Shown here: in pieces, positions 46,229 to 54,884 of the stretch | Layout of the letters: every line of letters starts with the position of its first letter | How positions within the stretch are numbered: position 1 is the first letter of the stretch | Source: Nocardia sp. BSTN01 | GTDB lineage: Bacteria > Actinomycetota > Actinomycetes > Mycobacteriales > Mycobacteriaceae | DNA: 64,000 bases | Assembly: GCF_015354405.1 (NCBI RefSeq) | Contig: NZ_JADKYP010000020.1 | Span: 1-64,000, forward strand | Direction: 5' to 3' | Notes under the pieces: generated by a model | Databases searched by the model: none | What the model saw: the letters and a program-made list of their open reading frames with translations, nothing else | Told to the model about the DNA's origin: nothing | Translations under genes and position numbers: made by a program

Positions 46229-46777
46229 TCACCACAGCGGGACCGGCGACTCGCCGATCTTGTACCAGCCCGGCAGCGGCCCGGCGCCCGAGCGTGCGAT
46301 CCGCTTCTGCATACCCTCCGAGAGCGCGTTCGCGGTGATCATCTCCACGAACAGCGCGGAGACGTTGCCGAAGTCGAAAAAGTCACGCTGCCAGGACCAT
46401 TGGAAGTCGCCGCCGTAGCGGAACCAGCTGCCGCCGATGCCCTCCGGGCTGTAGTGGCGGCCGTCGGGGCGGGTGTTCTCGTTGACCTGCTTCCACAGTC
46501 CGATCACGTTGCCGCTGCGCTCGTCGACGACGAATTCCTGGTACGGGTAGGTCCAGCCCTCGAGCCCGTCCATCTCCTGACCCAGCGCGAGTTCGCGGAT
46601 CTCCTCGCGGCCCACCGCCATGAATTCCTGGGTCGGGCCGTAGTTCCAGCCGTAGGTGGCGTCCTCGGTGTACATGTCGGCCAGCGGCCGCCAGTCGCCC
46701 GCCGCCTCGCAGCGTTCGTTCTCGACCACCCAGCGGCGGACCATCTCGTCGAGTTCGTCCCGGGAAAAACCGGACAT
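46229..46777 (-). CDS. SnoaL-like/NTF2-fold protein
   Basis: A 182-residue NTF2-like protein: VENERCEAAGDWRPLADMYTEDATYGWNYGP is the SnoaL pattern, with a polar pocket motif GWTYPYQEFVVDERSGNVIGLW. SnoaL-type proteins are cyclases or hydrolases/isomerases for polyketide and steroid-like rings. The ATG at 46777 is preceded by GAAGGAAG. It is first in the leftward operon, 170 bases from the operator-bearing promoter at 46950-46968. Confidence 0.78.
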   Translation of the reverse strand: MSGFSRDELDEMVRRWVVENERCEAAGDWRPLADMYTEDATYGWNYGPTQEFMAVGREEIRELALGQEMDGLEGWTYPYQEFVVDERSGNVIGLWKQVNENTRPDGRHYSPEGIGGSWFRYGGDFQWSWQRDFFDFGNVSALFVEMITANALSEGMQKRIARSGAGPLPGWYKIGESPVPLW

Positions 46778-46949
46778 CGCAGCTTCCTTCACATTCTGTG
46801 TCGAGGGCCGGCGCCGATCTCCGGCGTGGCCTGATCCGGGCGGTCACCGGGCTGCGGCGACCGCGAACGTCGTGGTCCGTCAGCCCGTTTTCGAGAACGA
46901 GTTCAGGCCGGGATATCCCTCGCGGACAGGCGCGAAAGACACATCGCTG

Positions 46950-46968
46950 GACATGTGTCTGGACGGTA
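46950..46968 (-). promoter_or_regulatory. promoter and TetR-type operator of the leftward operon
   Basis: On the minus strand TACCGT (46968-46963, -10 candidate) is followed by the palindrome GACACATGTC (46959-46950). A second half GATGTGTC lies just downstream, making an AGACACAT-N8-ATGTGTCT inverted repeat. The operator would cover the transcript start. Confidence 0.6.
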
Positions 46969-47098
46969 CCACCGCAAGCGGGGGCCGACAATGGATCGAC
47001 CACTTTTGCCACCGAGAAGCGGACGTTCGACCAGGGTGCCGTGGACCGCCCACGCCGTGGTCGGCGCCGATTCCGTACCCTCGGCACAGTCGCGGAAT

Positions 47099-47154
47099 TG
47101 AAACAAGTTCTTGCGCCAAGATCAGAGTCGAACCTATAGTTCCGTACACGTGTC
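47099..47154 (+). promoter_or_regulatory. promoter and TetR-type operator of the rightward operon
   Basis: TATAGT (47135-47140) is followed by TACACGTGTC (47145-47154), nine of ten bases identical to the site at 54875. A near match to the KstR-like box, TGAAACAAGTTCTT, is at 47099-47112 in the -35 area. TSS would be about 47147, giving a 30-base leader to the ATG at 47177. Confidence 0.65.
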
Positions 47155-47176
47155 CAGACAGCTCCGAAAGGTACCC

Positions 47177-52235: not shown

Positions 52236-52960
52236 CCGTCGATTTCGACCGCTTGGGGATCGGTCCGGGCCTGCGAGTCATCGATGTGGGATGTGGGCAG
52301 GGTCGCCATTCCTTCGAGGCGTATCGGCGCGGCGCCGATATCGTCGCCTTCGATCAGAACGCCGACGACCTCGCCGATGTGAAGGTCATGTTCGGTGCGC
52401 TGGCCGAGGCCGACGAGGCTCCCGACTACGCGCAGGCCGAGACGGTCCAGGGCGACGCGCTGGCCATGCCGTTCGAGGACGGCGAATTCGACGTCGTCAT
52501 CGCCTCGGAGATCCTCGAGCACATTCCGGCCGACGACGGCGCCATCGCCGAACTGGTACGCATCCTCAAACCCGGTGGGGCCCTGGCGATCACGGTGCCA
52601 CGCTGGCTGCCCGAGCGGATCTGCTGGCTGCTCTCGGACGAATACCACGCCAACGAGGGTGGGCATGTGCGCATCTACCGCGCCGACGAACTGCGCGGCA
52701 AGGTCACCGCGCGCGGGATGCGCTTCATCCACAGCGAACACGCACACGCGCTGCACGCTCCCTACTGGTGGCTGAAATGCCTGGTCGGGGTGGACAAGCC
52801 CGACGCCCGGCCGGTGCAGCTGTATCACCGGATGCTGGTGTGGGACATGATGAAACGGCCGTGGCTGACCCGTGTCGCCGAATCGGCCCTGGACCCGGTG
52901 ATCGGCAAGAGCGTCGCCCTGTACTTCACCAAGCCGGCGGTGTCCGGTGCGCGCCGCTGA
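52229..52960 (+). CDS. class I SAM-dependent methyltransferase (UbiE-like)
   Basis: A 243-residue class I methyltransferase. Motif I VIDVGCGQGRHSFEA (residues 18-32), acidic residue after beta2 (AFDQNADDL), motif post-I ETVQGDALAMPF and IASEILEHIP. The C-terminus (about 160-225) has a helical substrate domain with HAPYWWLKCLVG. ATG is inside the GT4 stop region (ATGCTGA), so it is translationally coupled. Likely target is the glycosylated or lipid product, by neighbourhood only. Confidence 0.87.
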   Translation: MLTVDFDRLGIGPGLRVIDVGCGQGRHSFEAYRRGADIVAFDQNADDLADVKVMFGALAEADEAPDYAQAETVQGDALAMPFEDGEFDVVIASEILEHIPADDGAIAELVRILKPGGALAITVPRWLPERICWLLSDEYHANEGGHVRIYRADELRGKVTARGMRFIHSEHAHALHAPYWWLKCLVGVDKPDARPVQLYHRMLVWDMMKRPWLTRVAESALDPVIGKSVALYFTKPAVSGARR

Positions 52961-54020
52961 GCTGCCCTCGATTCCCGGCGTCCTCACCGCCCGGCAATGC
53001 CTGGCCACCGCGGAATCCATTGCCGCACAACAGCACAGCGACGGCGCCATCCCGTGGTTCCGGGGCGGGCACACCGATCCCTGGGACCATGTCGAGTCGG
53101 CGATGGCGCTGACGGTGGCGGGGCTGCTCGATGCCGCGCGCGCCGCCTATGCCTGGTCGGCGGACACCCAGCGCGCGGACGGCTCCTGGCCGTCGCAGTT
53201 CCGCGGCGACGTCGTCGAGACCGCCGACACCGACACCAATTTCTGCGCCTACATCGCCACCGGCGTCTGGCACTACTACCGCTGCACCGGTGACCGCCGC
53301 TTCGTGGACACGATGTGGCCGACCGTGCGCGCCGCGATCGACTACGTCATCTCGTTGCAGCAGGGCCGCAACGGCGAAATCTATTGGCTGCAGACCGAAC
53401 AGGGCATCCTGCCCGAGGCGTTGCTGACCGGCTGCTCGAGTATGTTCCACAGCATCGGCTGCGGGCTGGCGATCGCGGAACTGATCGGCCTCGCCCAGCC
53501 GGAATGGGAGGTCGCGGCCCTGCGCCTCGGCCACGCCCTGCGGCATCATCCGGAATCCTTCGCCGAGAAGGACCGGTATTCGATGGACTGGTACTACCCG
53601 GTGCTGGGCGGGGCGCTGCGCGGAGAGGCCGGACATGCCCGGATCGCCTCGCGCTGGAGCGATTTCGTGGTCGGCGAGATCGGTATTCGCTGCGTCTCCG
53701 ACCGGCCGTGGGTGACCGGCGCCGAAACCTGTGAACTGGCACTGGCACTGGACACCCTCGGTGATTCCGATCGCGCGCTGCGCCTGCTGGCGAGTATCCA
53801 GCACCTGCGCGAGGACGACGGATCCTATTGGACCGGACTGGTTTTCGCCGACGGTAAGCGCTGGCCGGAGGAGCGCACCACCTGGACCGGTGCGGCGGCG
53901 GTGCTGGCCGCCGACGCGCTGACCCGCACCACCGGCGGCAACGGCATCTTCCGCGACCTGGCGCCCAGTGCGGATATCGCGACCGGCCTCACCTGCGACT
54001 GCGTGCGCTCGCCCAGCTGA
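52947..54020 (+). CDS. alpha/alpha-barrel protein, prenyltransferase/squalene-cyclase-like repeats
   Basis: A 357-residue all-helical protein with repeats of the terpenoid-cyclase/prenyltransferase toroid: IPWFRGGHTDPWDHVESAMAL, RADGSWPSQF, TNFCAYIATGVWHYY and RWPEERTTWTGAAAVLAA. No DxDD or aromatic-rich catalytic motif of squalene-hopene cyclase is seen. Glycoside hydrolases of the six-hairpin type share the fold, so it may instead bind or cleave a carbohydrate. GTG at 52947 overlaps the methyltransferase by 14 bases. Last gene of the operon. Confidence 0.78.
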   Translation: MRAAELPSIPGVLTARQCLATAESIAAQQHSDGAIPWFRGGHTDPWDHVESAMALTVAGLLDAARAAYAWSADTQRADGSWPSQFRGDVVETADTDTNFCAYIATGVWHYYRCTGDRRFVDTMWPTVRAAIDYVISLQQGRNGEIYWLQTEQGILPEALLTGCSSMFHSIGCGLAIAELIGLAQPEWEVAALRLGHALRHHPESFAEKDRYSMDWYYPVLGGALRGEAGHARIASRWSDFVVGEIGIRCVSDRPWVTGAETCELALALDTLGDSDRALRLLASIQHLREDDGSYWTGLVFADGKRWPEERTTWTGAAAVLAADALTRTTGGNGIFRDLAPSADIATGLTCDCVRSPS

Positions 54021-54056
54021 GCCGGCCGCGACCTCATCGCTTCCGCTTCGGCCGTT

Positions 54057-54743
54057 TCAGCCCTTACCACCGCACCCCGTGCCACGCTCGAGCAACCGCA
54101 GCGATCCGATGGCCGCGACCTCGCGGAAATTGCCGCTGTCCAACGCCTTTCGATAGATGTGGTACGGGGCCTGCCCGCCGTCGGCCGGATCCGGGAAGAC
54201 GTCGTGGATGGCCAGCACGCCACCGGCCGCCACCCAGTGCGCCCAGCCGTCGTAGTCGCGCTGGGCCGCTGCCTCGGTATGTCCGCCGTCGATGAACAGC
54301 AGCCGGATCGGGCTGCGCCAATGCTTCGCCACGGTTGCCGAGGGGCCCACCACGCCGATCACGGTATCGGTCAATTCCGCGCGCACCATGGTGCGGCGGA
54401 ACGTGGTCACGGTGTCGAAGCGGCCGGTTTCGGGGTCGACCAGCGAGGTGTCGTGATACTCCCAGCCGGGCTGGTGTTCCTCGGACCCGTGATGATGGTC
54501 GATGGTGTAGACGGTGGCGCCGGTGTCTCGGGCCGCCGCGCCGAGATATATCGCCGACTTGCCGCAGTAGGTGCCGATTTCCACGATTATTCCGTCGCCC
54601 GCGTAACGCCGCGCGGCCTCGTAGAGCGCGCGCCCCTCCTCGATCGGCATGAATCCCGTCGCCTGCTCGGCCAGCTCGAACAATCGCCGAGTATCCGCGG
54701 AAATATCGGATTCCGCGGGAATTATCGAATCGGCACGAGTCAT
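54057..54743 (-). CDS. class I SAM-dependent methyltransferase (Methyltransf_24/CmcI-like)
   Basis: A 228-residue methyltransferase. Motif I is [16 protein letters not shown] (residues 55-70); [13 protein letters not shown] resembles the CmcI/MycE O-methyltransferases for sugars and polyphenols; [21 protein letters not shown] is a metal-binding site common to them. GAAAGG precedes the ATG at 54743. It faces the operon end to end, and is divergent from the TetR gene. A sugar or hydroxyl methyltransferase acting on the GT4 product is a plausible role (inference). Confidence 0.85.
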
Positions 54744-54860
54744 CAGAAGAACACCTTTCGGAAATCATCTCTCGATACTTTGCGAGCGGATGCGATATTG
54801 TGTGATTTGCGACTGTATCCGCTCCGGCTACGGGTATGCGAGTTGCTTTCGAAGCTTCAC

Positions 54861-54884
54861 TACAGTAGCATCCAGACACGTGTC
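54861..54884 (+). promoter_or_regulatory. promoter and palindromic operator of the TetR gene
   Basis: TACAGT (54861-54866) is followed by the perfect palindrome GACACGTGTC (54875-54884), which covers the GTG start at 54880. This suggests leaderless transcription and autorepression. Confidence 0.65.

Follow-up and report, generated by a model that had tools for sequence, protein, structure and literature searches.

A Nocardia locus joining methylmannose polysaccharide genes to genes of a CYP51 locus in a predicted TetR regulon

Genes of the locus and the methylmannose polysaccharide half

Nocardia sp. BSTN01 (genome size 7.8 Mb) carries, within the window studied here (the whole analysed stretch of 64,000 nucleotides from contig NZ_JADKYP010000020.1), a locus in which two gene systems meet: the genes for methylmannose polysaccharide (MMP) and genes that in relatives surround the P450 gene CYP51. 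Both systems, the MMP cluster and the CYP51 locus, have been described before, each on its own. A literature search for the pair gave no paper joining them, and wider searches gave none among the matches listed, judged by title and start of abstract. Gene calls in the scripted steps were simple open reading frame (ORF) calls. An earlier note on this DNA had described a rightward run of genes, a leftward group and, closing the locus, a second methyltransferase and a TetR gene. All of these are present at the places and in the arrangement described, as follows.

43324..44937, minus strand, acyl-CoA synthetase (NCBIfam PRK07798, over the cut-off)
44982..46235, minus strand, 417-residue orphan protein of the CYP51 locus
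46229..46792, minus strand, SnoaL-like protein (match below the Pfam cut-off; same position in the CYP51 loci of relatives)
47177..48100, plus strand, 3-hydroxyisobutyrate-dehydrogenase-like (HIBADH-like) NAD enzyme
48090..48497, plus strand, carboxymuconolactone decarboxylase (CMD) family protein
48512..49996, plus strand, FAD-binding protein of the KstD-like superfamily (NCBIfam PRK07121.1-5, over the cut-off)
50023..50883, plus strand, F420-dependent LLM oxidoreductase (TIGR03619, over the cut-off)
50976..52235, plus strand, ManT, GT4 alpha-(1->4)-mannosyltransferase of MMP (PDB 7qsg, 5.1e-193)
52229..52960, plus strand, pMeT3, putative 3-O-methyltransferase of MMP (from its place in the described four-gene cluster)
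52947..54020, plus strand, MmpH, MMP alpha-endomannosidase, (alpha/alpha)6 barrel (PDB 7qsj, 6.9e-155)
54057..54743, minus strand, MeT1, MMP 1-O-methyltransferase (Methyltransf_24; PDB 6g7d, 3.8e-99)
54910..55479, plus strand, TetR-family regulator, distantly KstR-like (kin to TetRs at MMP and CYP51 clusters)

The rightward genes (47177-54020) overlap or are separated by gaps of 14-92 bp. The closest named record, among the best 80 stretches, is N. cerradoensis NBRC 101014 (98% in mmpH), and N. cerradoensis (L170) has the identical gene order all the way from ADC to GMC, at 95-100% identity. The arrangement of redox genes followed by manT-meT3-mmpH is found again in many genomes of the genus, though not in all. 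The gene set is thus more than a chance assembly. ADC and SDR genes (41740-43250, to the left) and a GMC oxidoreductase gene (56326-57942, to the right) accompany the locus in several Nocardia.

By sequence, the GT4 enzyme, the methyltransferase, the barrel protein and the second methyltransferase are the described MMP cluster. The match of ManT to 7qsg spans residues 1-403; that entry is labelled as a D-inositol 3-phosphate glycosyltransferase, and we take it to be ManT of M. hassiacum, consistent with the MMP paper. The entry 6g7d is labelled as a methyltransferase domain protein and is presumably MeT1, again consistent with the MMP paper. Only 7qsj, of the three matched PDB entries, bears the MMP name (MmpH), and the barrel, which had been taken for prenyltransferase-like, is this endomannosidase. 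In an alignment with 7qsj read manually, D44, D47 and E260 of the window MmpH correspond to Asp47, Asp50 and Glu262 of M. hassiacum, and the three residues are invariant across 12 MmpH sequences. Loss of these residues is reported to abolish or much reduce the activity of M. hassiacum MmpH. At the level of the order, mmpH is present in 84 of 200 genomes, and manT-pmeT3-mmpH is contiguous in the window and in 20/20 loci.

Nontuberculous mycobacteria have an MMP cluster (Maranha et al. 2023, PMC9883506) with the same four genes, three of which give strong PDB-sequence matches in the window, with the MmpH catalytic residues kept. The mycobacterial MMP loci examined show the gene order of the window; what differs is that here manT-pmeT3-mmpH comes last in what looks like one operon with genes of the CYP51 locus. 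P450, CYP51 and sterol are never mentioned in the part of that paper accessible to us, and the activity of pMeT3 is putative there as well. Mycobacterial ManT is described as extending alpha-(1->4)-oligomannosides, the 3-O-methylated ones being strongly preferred. Given the identities of ManT, MmpH, MeT1 and pMeT3, the predicted product is therefore methylmannose polysaccharide, that is, a free polymethylated polysaccharide and not a glycosylated, methylated lipid. The earlier remark that the gene set is not a described pathway thus fails for the GT4, barrel and two methyltransferase genes; their union with the CYP51 genes was not found in print.

The CYP51-locus half and its linkage to the MMP genes

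The genes for the SnoaL-like protein, the orphan, the acyl-CoA synthetase, the HIBADH-like enzyme, the CMD protein, the flavoprotein and the F420 enzyme are, by their content and neighbourhood, a fragment of a CYP51 locus. In relatives the orphan is surrounded by genes for SnoaL, a ferredoxin, CYP51, an SDR, a CYP123-type P450, a TetR, an ALDH, a second SDR, HIBADH-like and CMD proteins, and FAD and LLM genes often join these loci. SnoaL, orphan, HIBADH and CMD genes are all present in the window, together with the predicted operator described below. The orphan, listed earlier as a 413-residue protein of unknown family, is 417 residues long; it indeed has no convincing relative among Pfam, NCBIfam and PDB sequences, where we found two weak Pfam hits, given by only 3/22 members. 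It occurs in 119/201 genomes of the family, nearly always as a single match per genome, it overlaps or abuts the SnoaL gene, and the acyl-CoA synthetase gene follows it in 27 locus entries (the window and repeat entries included). Many residues are invariant in the orphan alignment.

Three P450 families recur at these loci, namely CYP51, CYP123-type (a name that we assume from position) and CYP125, the steroid C26-monooxygenase (9.3e-178 for the L129 copy). The CYP51 of the BSTN01 genome matches 7tef (Cyp51B1) at 4.6e-238 and 1e9x (named RV0764C) at 3.1e-231. In several sister Nocardia, CYP51 is adjacent to the locus. A block of SDR2, ALDH, CYP123, SDR1, ferredoxin and CYP125 genes is missing from the window locus and lies on contig C131.

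The CYP51 locus of M. tuberculosis (Rv0762c-Rv0771; PMC10470581; review PMC6469627) has the HIBADH-like, CMD, SnoaL-like and TetR kinds in common with the window, and in a table of that paper the listed genes of this locus all drop together after one treatment. It differs in that the window is without CYP51, CYP123, ferredoxin, SDR1/SDR2 and ALDH, which are on C131 and C132, and adds the FAD, LLM and MMP genes.

The linkage of the two halves was counted across genomes. Within the genus, mmpH was found in 90 of 149 genomes, and CYP51 in all 90 of these (90/90) and in 51 of the 59 without mmpH. Among the matches listed, the distance between CYP51 and mmpH is at most 15 kb in 48/90; the FAD gene is no more than 6 kb from mmpH in 42/85, and the LLM gene in 68 of the 82 genomes with a listed place. 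In a sample of 201 genomes of the family mmpH and CYP51 are associated in their occurrence (85 with both, 14 with mmpH only, 33 with CYP51 only, 69 with neither; uncorrected for phylogeny). They are at most 60 kb apart in 64 of the 85 and at most 20 kb apart in 47; with Mycobacterium excluded, they are linked (within 60 kb) in 64/73 genomes from 11 genera. The Mycobacterium group was named by blastn, as 17/17 of its mmpH loci best match Mycobacterium, Mycolicibacterium or Mycolicibacter (82-96%), and the assignment to Dietzia concerns one locus (95%, blastn). In one record, L199, a metagenome-assembled genome (MAG) titled Acidobacteria, the MMP cluster is of the Mycobacterium type, which probably reflects a binning error.

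Conservation was compared in 10 linked genomes from 9 genera, chosen for being linked (the whole-sample count is 64/85). A gene inside the cluster had a reciprocal best hit in, on average, 4.94 of the 9 other genomes, against 0.51 and 0.57 for genes of the two 20-kb flanks. Since the flanks are barely conserved compared to the cluster interior, chromosome-wide gene order does not explain the linkage, and backbone synteny was rejected as its cause.

The MMP genes are arranged differently in different lineages, with adjacency to their cluster partners kept. CYP125 and manT adjoin in 12 entries (one a repeat), with a 1-bp overlap in six Nocardia loci and 32-61 bp between them in the others. LLM and manT are spaced by -1 to +2 bp in 13/33 entries (10/26 loci without repeats), and CMD and meT1 by an estimated 35 bp or less in 11/17 (10/16 without the repeat). 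Gene starts at these junctions were extrapolated from tblastn, so that the gap sizes are estimates, and the set includes six locus pairs with identical manT stretches, with L132, L130 and L142 duplicating the window, L089 and L092. In the window the gap between LLM and manT (50883-50976) is 92 bp. Read by eye, the 3' end of the LLM gene is repeated in tandem, almost perfectly, at 50860-50975 (gcgcgcgagcgcctgaac...); as the gap is built mostly from these repeats, it looks like a local duplication. In many sister loci the spacing is -1 to +2 bp. Simple scans found no terminator-like or sigma-70-like site in it. In two Actinomadura (L242, L249) and a MAG (L247), P450s of the CYP125 cluster lie directly 5' of manT, the nearest at 42-61 bp; the operator model described below gave no site scoring at least 13 in these three loci.

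A TetR regulator and a predicted operator common to both halves

The TetR of the window is close kin of the TetRs at Mycobacterium MMP clusters and at the CYP51 clusters of other genera. In a TetR tree (midpoint root only), the TetR of the mycobacterial MMP cluster nests within the joined-cluster TetRs of other genera, and that of the mycobacterial CYP51 locus branches off at a distance. Some Nocardia have two copies of the window-type TetR in one locus (L129:6373-6930 and 10640-11194; L136, L213, L219); one copy adjoins CMD, the other precedes CYP51, and both have a site of their own. The single NCBIfam match of the window TetR is KstR (NF033703), at 48.1 bits against a cut-off of 280 bits, and identity with KstR was rejected on that score. 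Likeness to the KstR cholesterol regulon lies in this match and in the tie of CYP125 to cholesterol, taken from its name and from PMC6469627; the window TetR differs in falling far below the KstR cut-off.

Both divergent promoters of the window contain a palindrome with a consensus of about TCCRGACAYGTGTCYGGA, which we regard as a predicted operator and which differs from the KstR motif. An earlier, shorter motif (TGTCNNGACA) gave too little and was replaced by this longer palindrome. A position weight matrix (PWM) was trained on just 25 Mycobacterium-type TetR/meT1 promoters and tested elsewhere. The sites in the window are listed below.

46946..46963, no strand, predicted operator GCTGGACATGTGTCTGGA between the divergent SnoaL and HIBADH genes (PWM score 20.4)
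47141..47158, no strand, second predicted operator TCCGTACACGTGTCCAGA, 18 bp 5' of HIBADH (PWM score 19.6)
54871..54888, no strand, predicted operator TCCAGACACGTGTCCGAT in the MeT1/TetR divergent gap (PWM score 27.8)

An 18-mer matching the palindrome at 15 or more positions is present in 83 of 86 promoters of window-type TetR genes, a set that includes near-copies and repeats, with a consensus derived from a few promoters and single shuffles reaching 15/18. PWM sites of at least 13 occur in 19/20 family loci (L111-L130), mostly 5' of TetR, ALDH, CYP123, SDR1 and CYP51, against a flank background of two hits of at least 12 in 398 kb. The 16-bp core recurs, with no more than one mismatch, at four places of the BSTN01 genome, of which two are in the window and one is on contig C131. 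The latter belongs to the displaced ALDH/CYP123 operon (L251), where the operator lies between ALDH and CYP123 and scores 23.5; the displaced CYP51 on contig C132 (L252) has a two-mismatch site scoring 15.9, about 35 bp before the homology-supported start. At the Mycobacterium CYP51 locus, the core GGACANNTGTCC is found in the divergent gap between TetR and ALDH-SDR2 in 14/14 genomes (two copies in 13), against a background of three in 398 kb of flanks.

The promoters of manT were scanned in 76 records, namely those with manT and enough upstream DNA from the best 80 of at least 579 stretches. A site of at least 13 stands within 300 bp 5' of manT in 35/35 Mycobacterium-type records examined, which include two MAGs titled otherwise (L199, L214); 20 of 760 control windows reached this score, and as these come from the same loci they may contain real sites. 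That the operator stands right before manT in all genera was rejected, as outside the Mycobacterium type a single Rhodococcus record has it; non-mycobacterial manT would depend on the promoter of the upstream operon. A computed motif has been published for Rv0767c (PMC4482099).

A further P450 family lies near the MMP-cluster TetR at Mycobacterium-type loci (L042:12442-15125, L188:13035-15767 and 14 others). It has 18 members in 16 loci, two of them consecutive in L042 and in L188, and its nearest solved structure matches at just 2.7e-32 (one member).

Interpretation of the joined locus

We consider it likely, with good confidence, that the locus is the Nocardia version of a conserved predicted regulon in which one TetR regulator governs both MMP biosynthesis and CYP51/CYP125-type oxidation. 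The MMP gene identities, the linkage, the operon-like junctions and the shared predicted operator are read from the DNA; TetR-operator binding, a lipid-like ligand, a sterol- or isoprenoid-like substrate and a carrier role for MMP are inferred. The TetR (54910-55479) most likely binds the TCCRGACAYGTGTCYGGA-type palindromes of the promoters at 46946-47158 and 54871-54888, and most likely also those that drive the ALDH/CYP123 operon and the CYP51 operon on other contigs. A hydrophobic ligand would release it from the DNA. The redox enzymes would then oxidise a lipid-type substrate, sterol- or isoprenoid-like to judge from the CYP51 and CYP125 families. ManT and pMeT3 would lengthen and methylate an alpha-(1->4)-mannan, MeT1 would cap it and MmpH would cut it into new primers, following the scheme described for mycobacteria (PMC9883506). 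The finished MMP may act as a solubiliser, for the substrate itself, for the acyl-CoA of the substrate or for displaced fatty acyl chains. The same source proposes that MMP sequesters fatty-acyl-CoA, and sterol binding would be an extension of that proposal. It is possible, though we hold this only tentatively and think it rather doubtful, that MMP, an O-methylated alpha-(1->4)-glycan, is a linear counterpart of methylated cyclodextrin, dedicated to holding what CYP51 and CYP125 act on (a compound of sterol or triterpenoid type, or the acyl-CoA of such a compound), with one TetR sensor over both.

Several results weigh against the joined regulon. In Mycobacterium mmpH and CYP51 are linked in 0/12 genomes, and in the family sample CYP51 occurs without mmpH in 33/118 CYP51 genomes and mmpH without CYP51 in 14/99. 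At 18/20 order-level mmpH loci there is no redox gene above 45% identity (P450s being outside the query set), the exceptions being L039 with most redox genes and L045 with LLM only; other loci gave weaker paralogue matches. As each gene is found without the other and most order-level loci show no redox gene above that identity, neither system needs the other. The CYP51 of BSTN01 itself is on contig C132 and not adjacent, its ALDH, CYP123 and CYP125 genes are also on other contigs, and three P450 queries give no match within the window. Operator sites are weak in two Tomitella-type loci (13.4 and 11.6), a site of at least 13 lies within 300 bp of manT in only 1/41 non-mycobacterial named loci (the Rhodococcus record), and none was seen in the scanned Actinomadura, Saccharopolyspora, Aeromicrobium, Actinoplanes and Kitasatospora loci. 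One of the four core places in the genome marks the 5' end of an ORF without known relation. Allowing two mismatches gives 54 strand hits, while the reversed pattern gives 32, so that weak sites alone mean little, and operator conservation is in part due to descent. Neither a ligand or substrate nor an MMP product is on record for the source organism, and N. otitidiscaviarum is stated as not known to make MMP. The site at this ORF of unknown family (L250:6554, G000:C152:149554) is a perfect 16-bp match and may be chance or a further regulon member.

The order-level loci had at first led us to conclude that there are two unrelated units, a conclusion dropped after the P450 queries and the family sampling. 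The occurrence of the manT-pmeT3-mmpH trio without the redox genes, proposed earlier as a sign of two units, is thus seen in part: the trio stands alone in Mycobacterium and at the majority of the loci examined in other families, but not in the rest of this family. There the earlier idea that redox and glycosyl- and methyltransferase genes belong together holds well beyond this genome, in the linkage (64/73), the junctions and the shared predicted operator. A milder form of separateness, to which we give somewhat less than an even chance, is that the two units share a regulator and a chromosomal home through one signal, for example a membrane lipid or cold stress, with MMP tuning fatty-acid synthesis and the CYP51 genes oxidising something unrelated. 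The occurrence of each unit without the other is in line with this, as are the slower growth of M. smegmatis without MmpH at 15°C and the proposed sequestration of fatty-acyl-CoA (both from PMC9883506), whereas the CYP125-manT, LLM-manT and CMD-meT1 junctions, down to 1-base overlaps in different lineages, suggest a demand for matched dosage, beyond what a common signal would require.

A plain neighbourhood without functional tie, either an ancestral adjacency retained in the family or one horizontally transferred island, appears unlikely to us. The linkage was counted in one family only, and the block could have been inherited or transferred whole, but the flanks have turned over while the block persisted, its internal order was reshuffled with adjacency kept, and the predicted operator is common to both loci even where they are unlinked. 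Least probable is what the earlier note suggested, one undescribed pathway whose product is a lipid or isoprenoid carrying sugar and O-methyl groups. The apparent operon with its short gaps would fit such a pathway, but ManT, MmpH and MeT1 match MMP enzymes (5e-193, 7e-155 and 4e-99), MmpH keeps its catalytic residues, and mycobacterial ManT extends alpha-(1->4)-oligomannosides, with its strong preference for the 3-O-methylated ones.

If MMP biosynthesis and CYP51-type oxidation do form one regulon, this link could help to explain the purpose of either. According to PMC6469627 it is unclear how CYP51 matters to the physiology of M. tuberculosis, where the sterol biosynthesis pathway is incomplete; the role of MMP is, in PMC9883506, a proposal only. 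The carrier function, if true, would provide a role for bacterial CYP51 and for MMP at once. As the loci lie apart in Mycobacterium, the tie is easily missed there, and it is the other genera of the family that reveal it, through linkage, operon-like junctions and the shared predicted operator. The predicted operator also offers a handle, as it points to a candidate regulator, to promoters and to further members of the regulon. To the right of the locus, the GC skew is 0.168 at 58001-60000, far off the remainder of the window.

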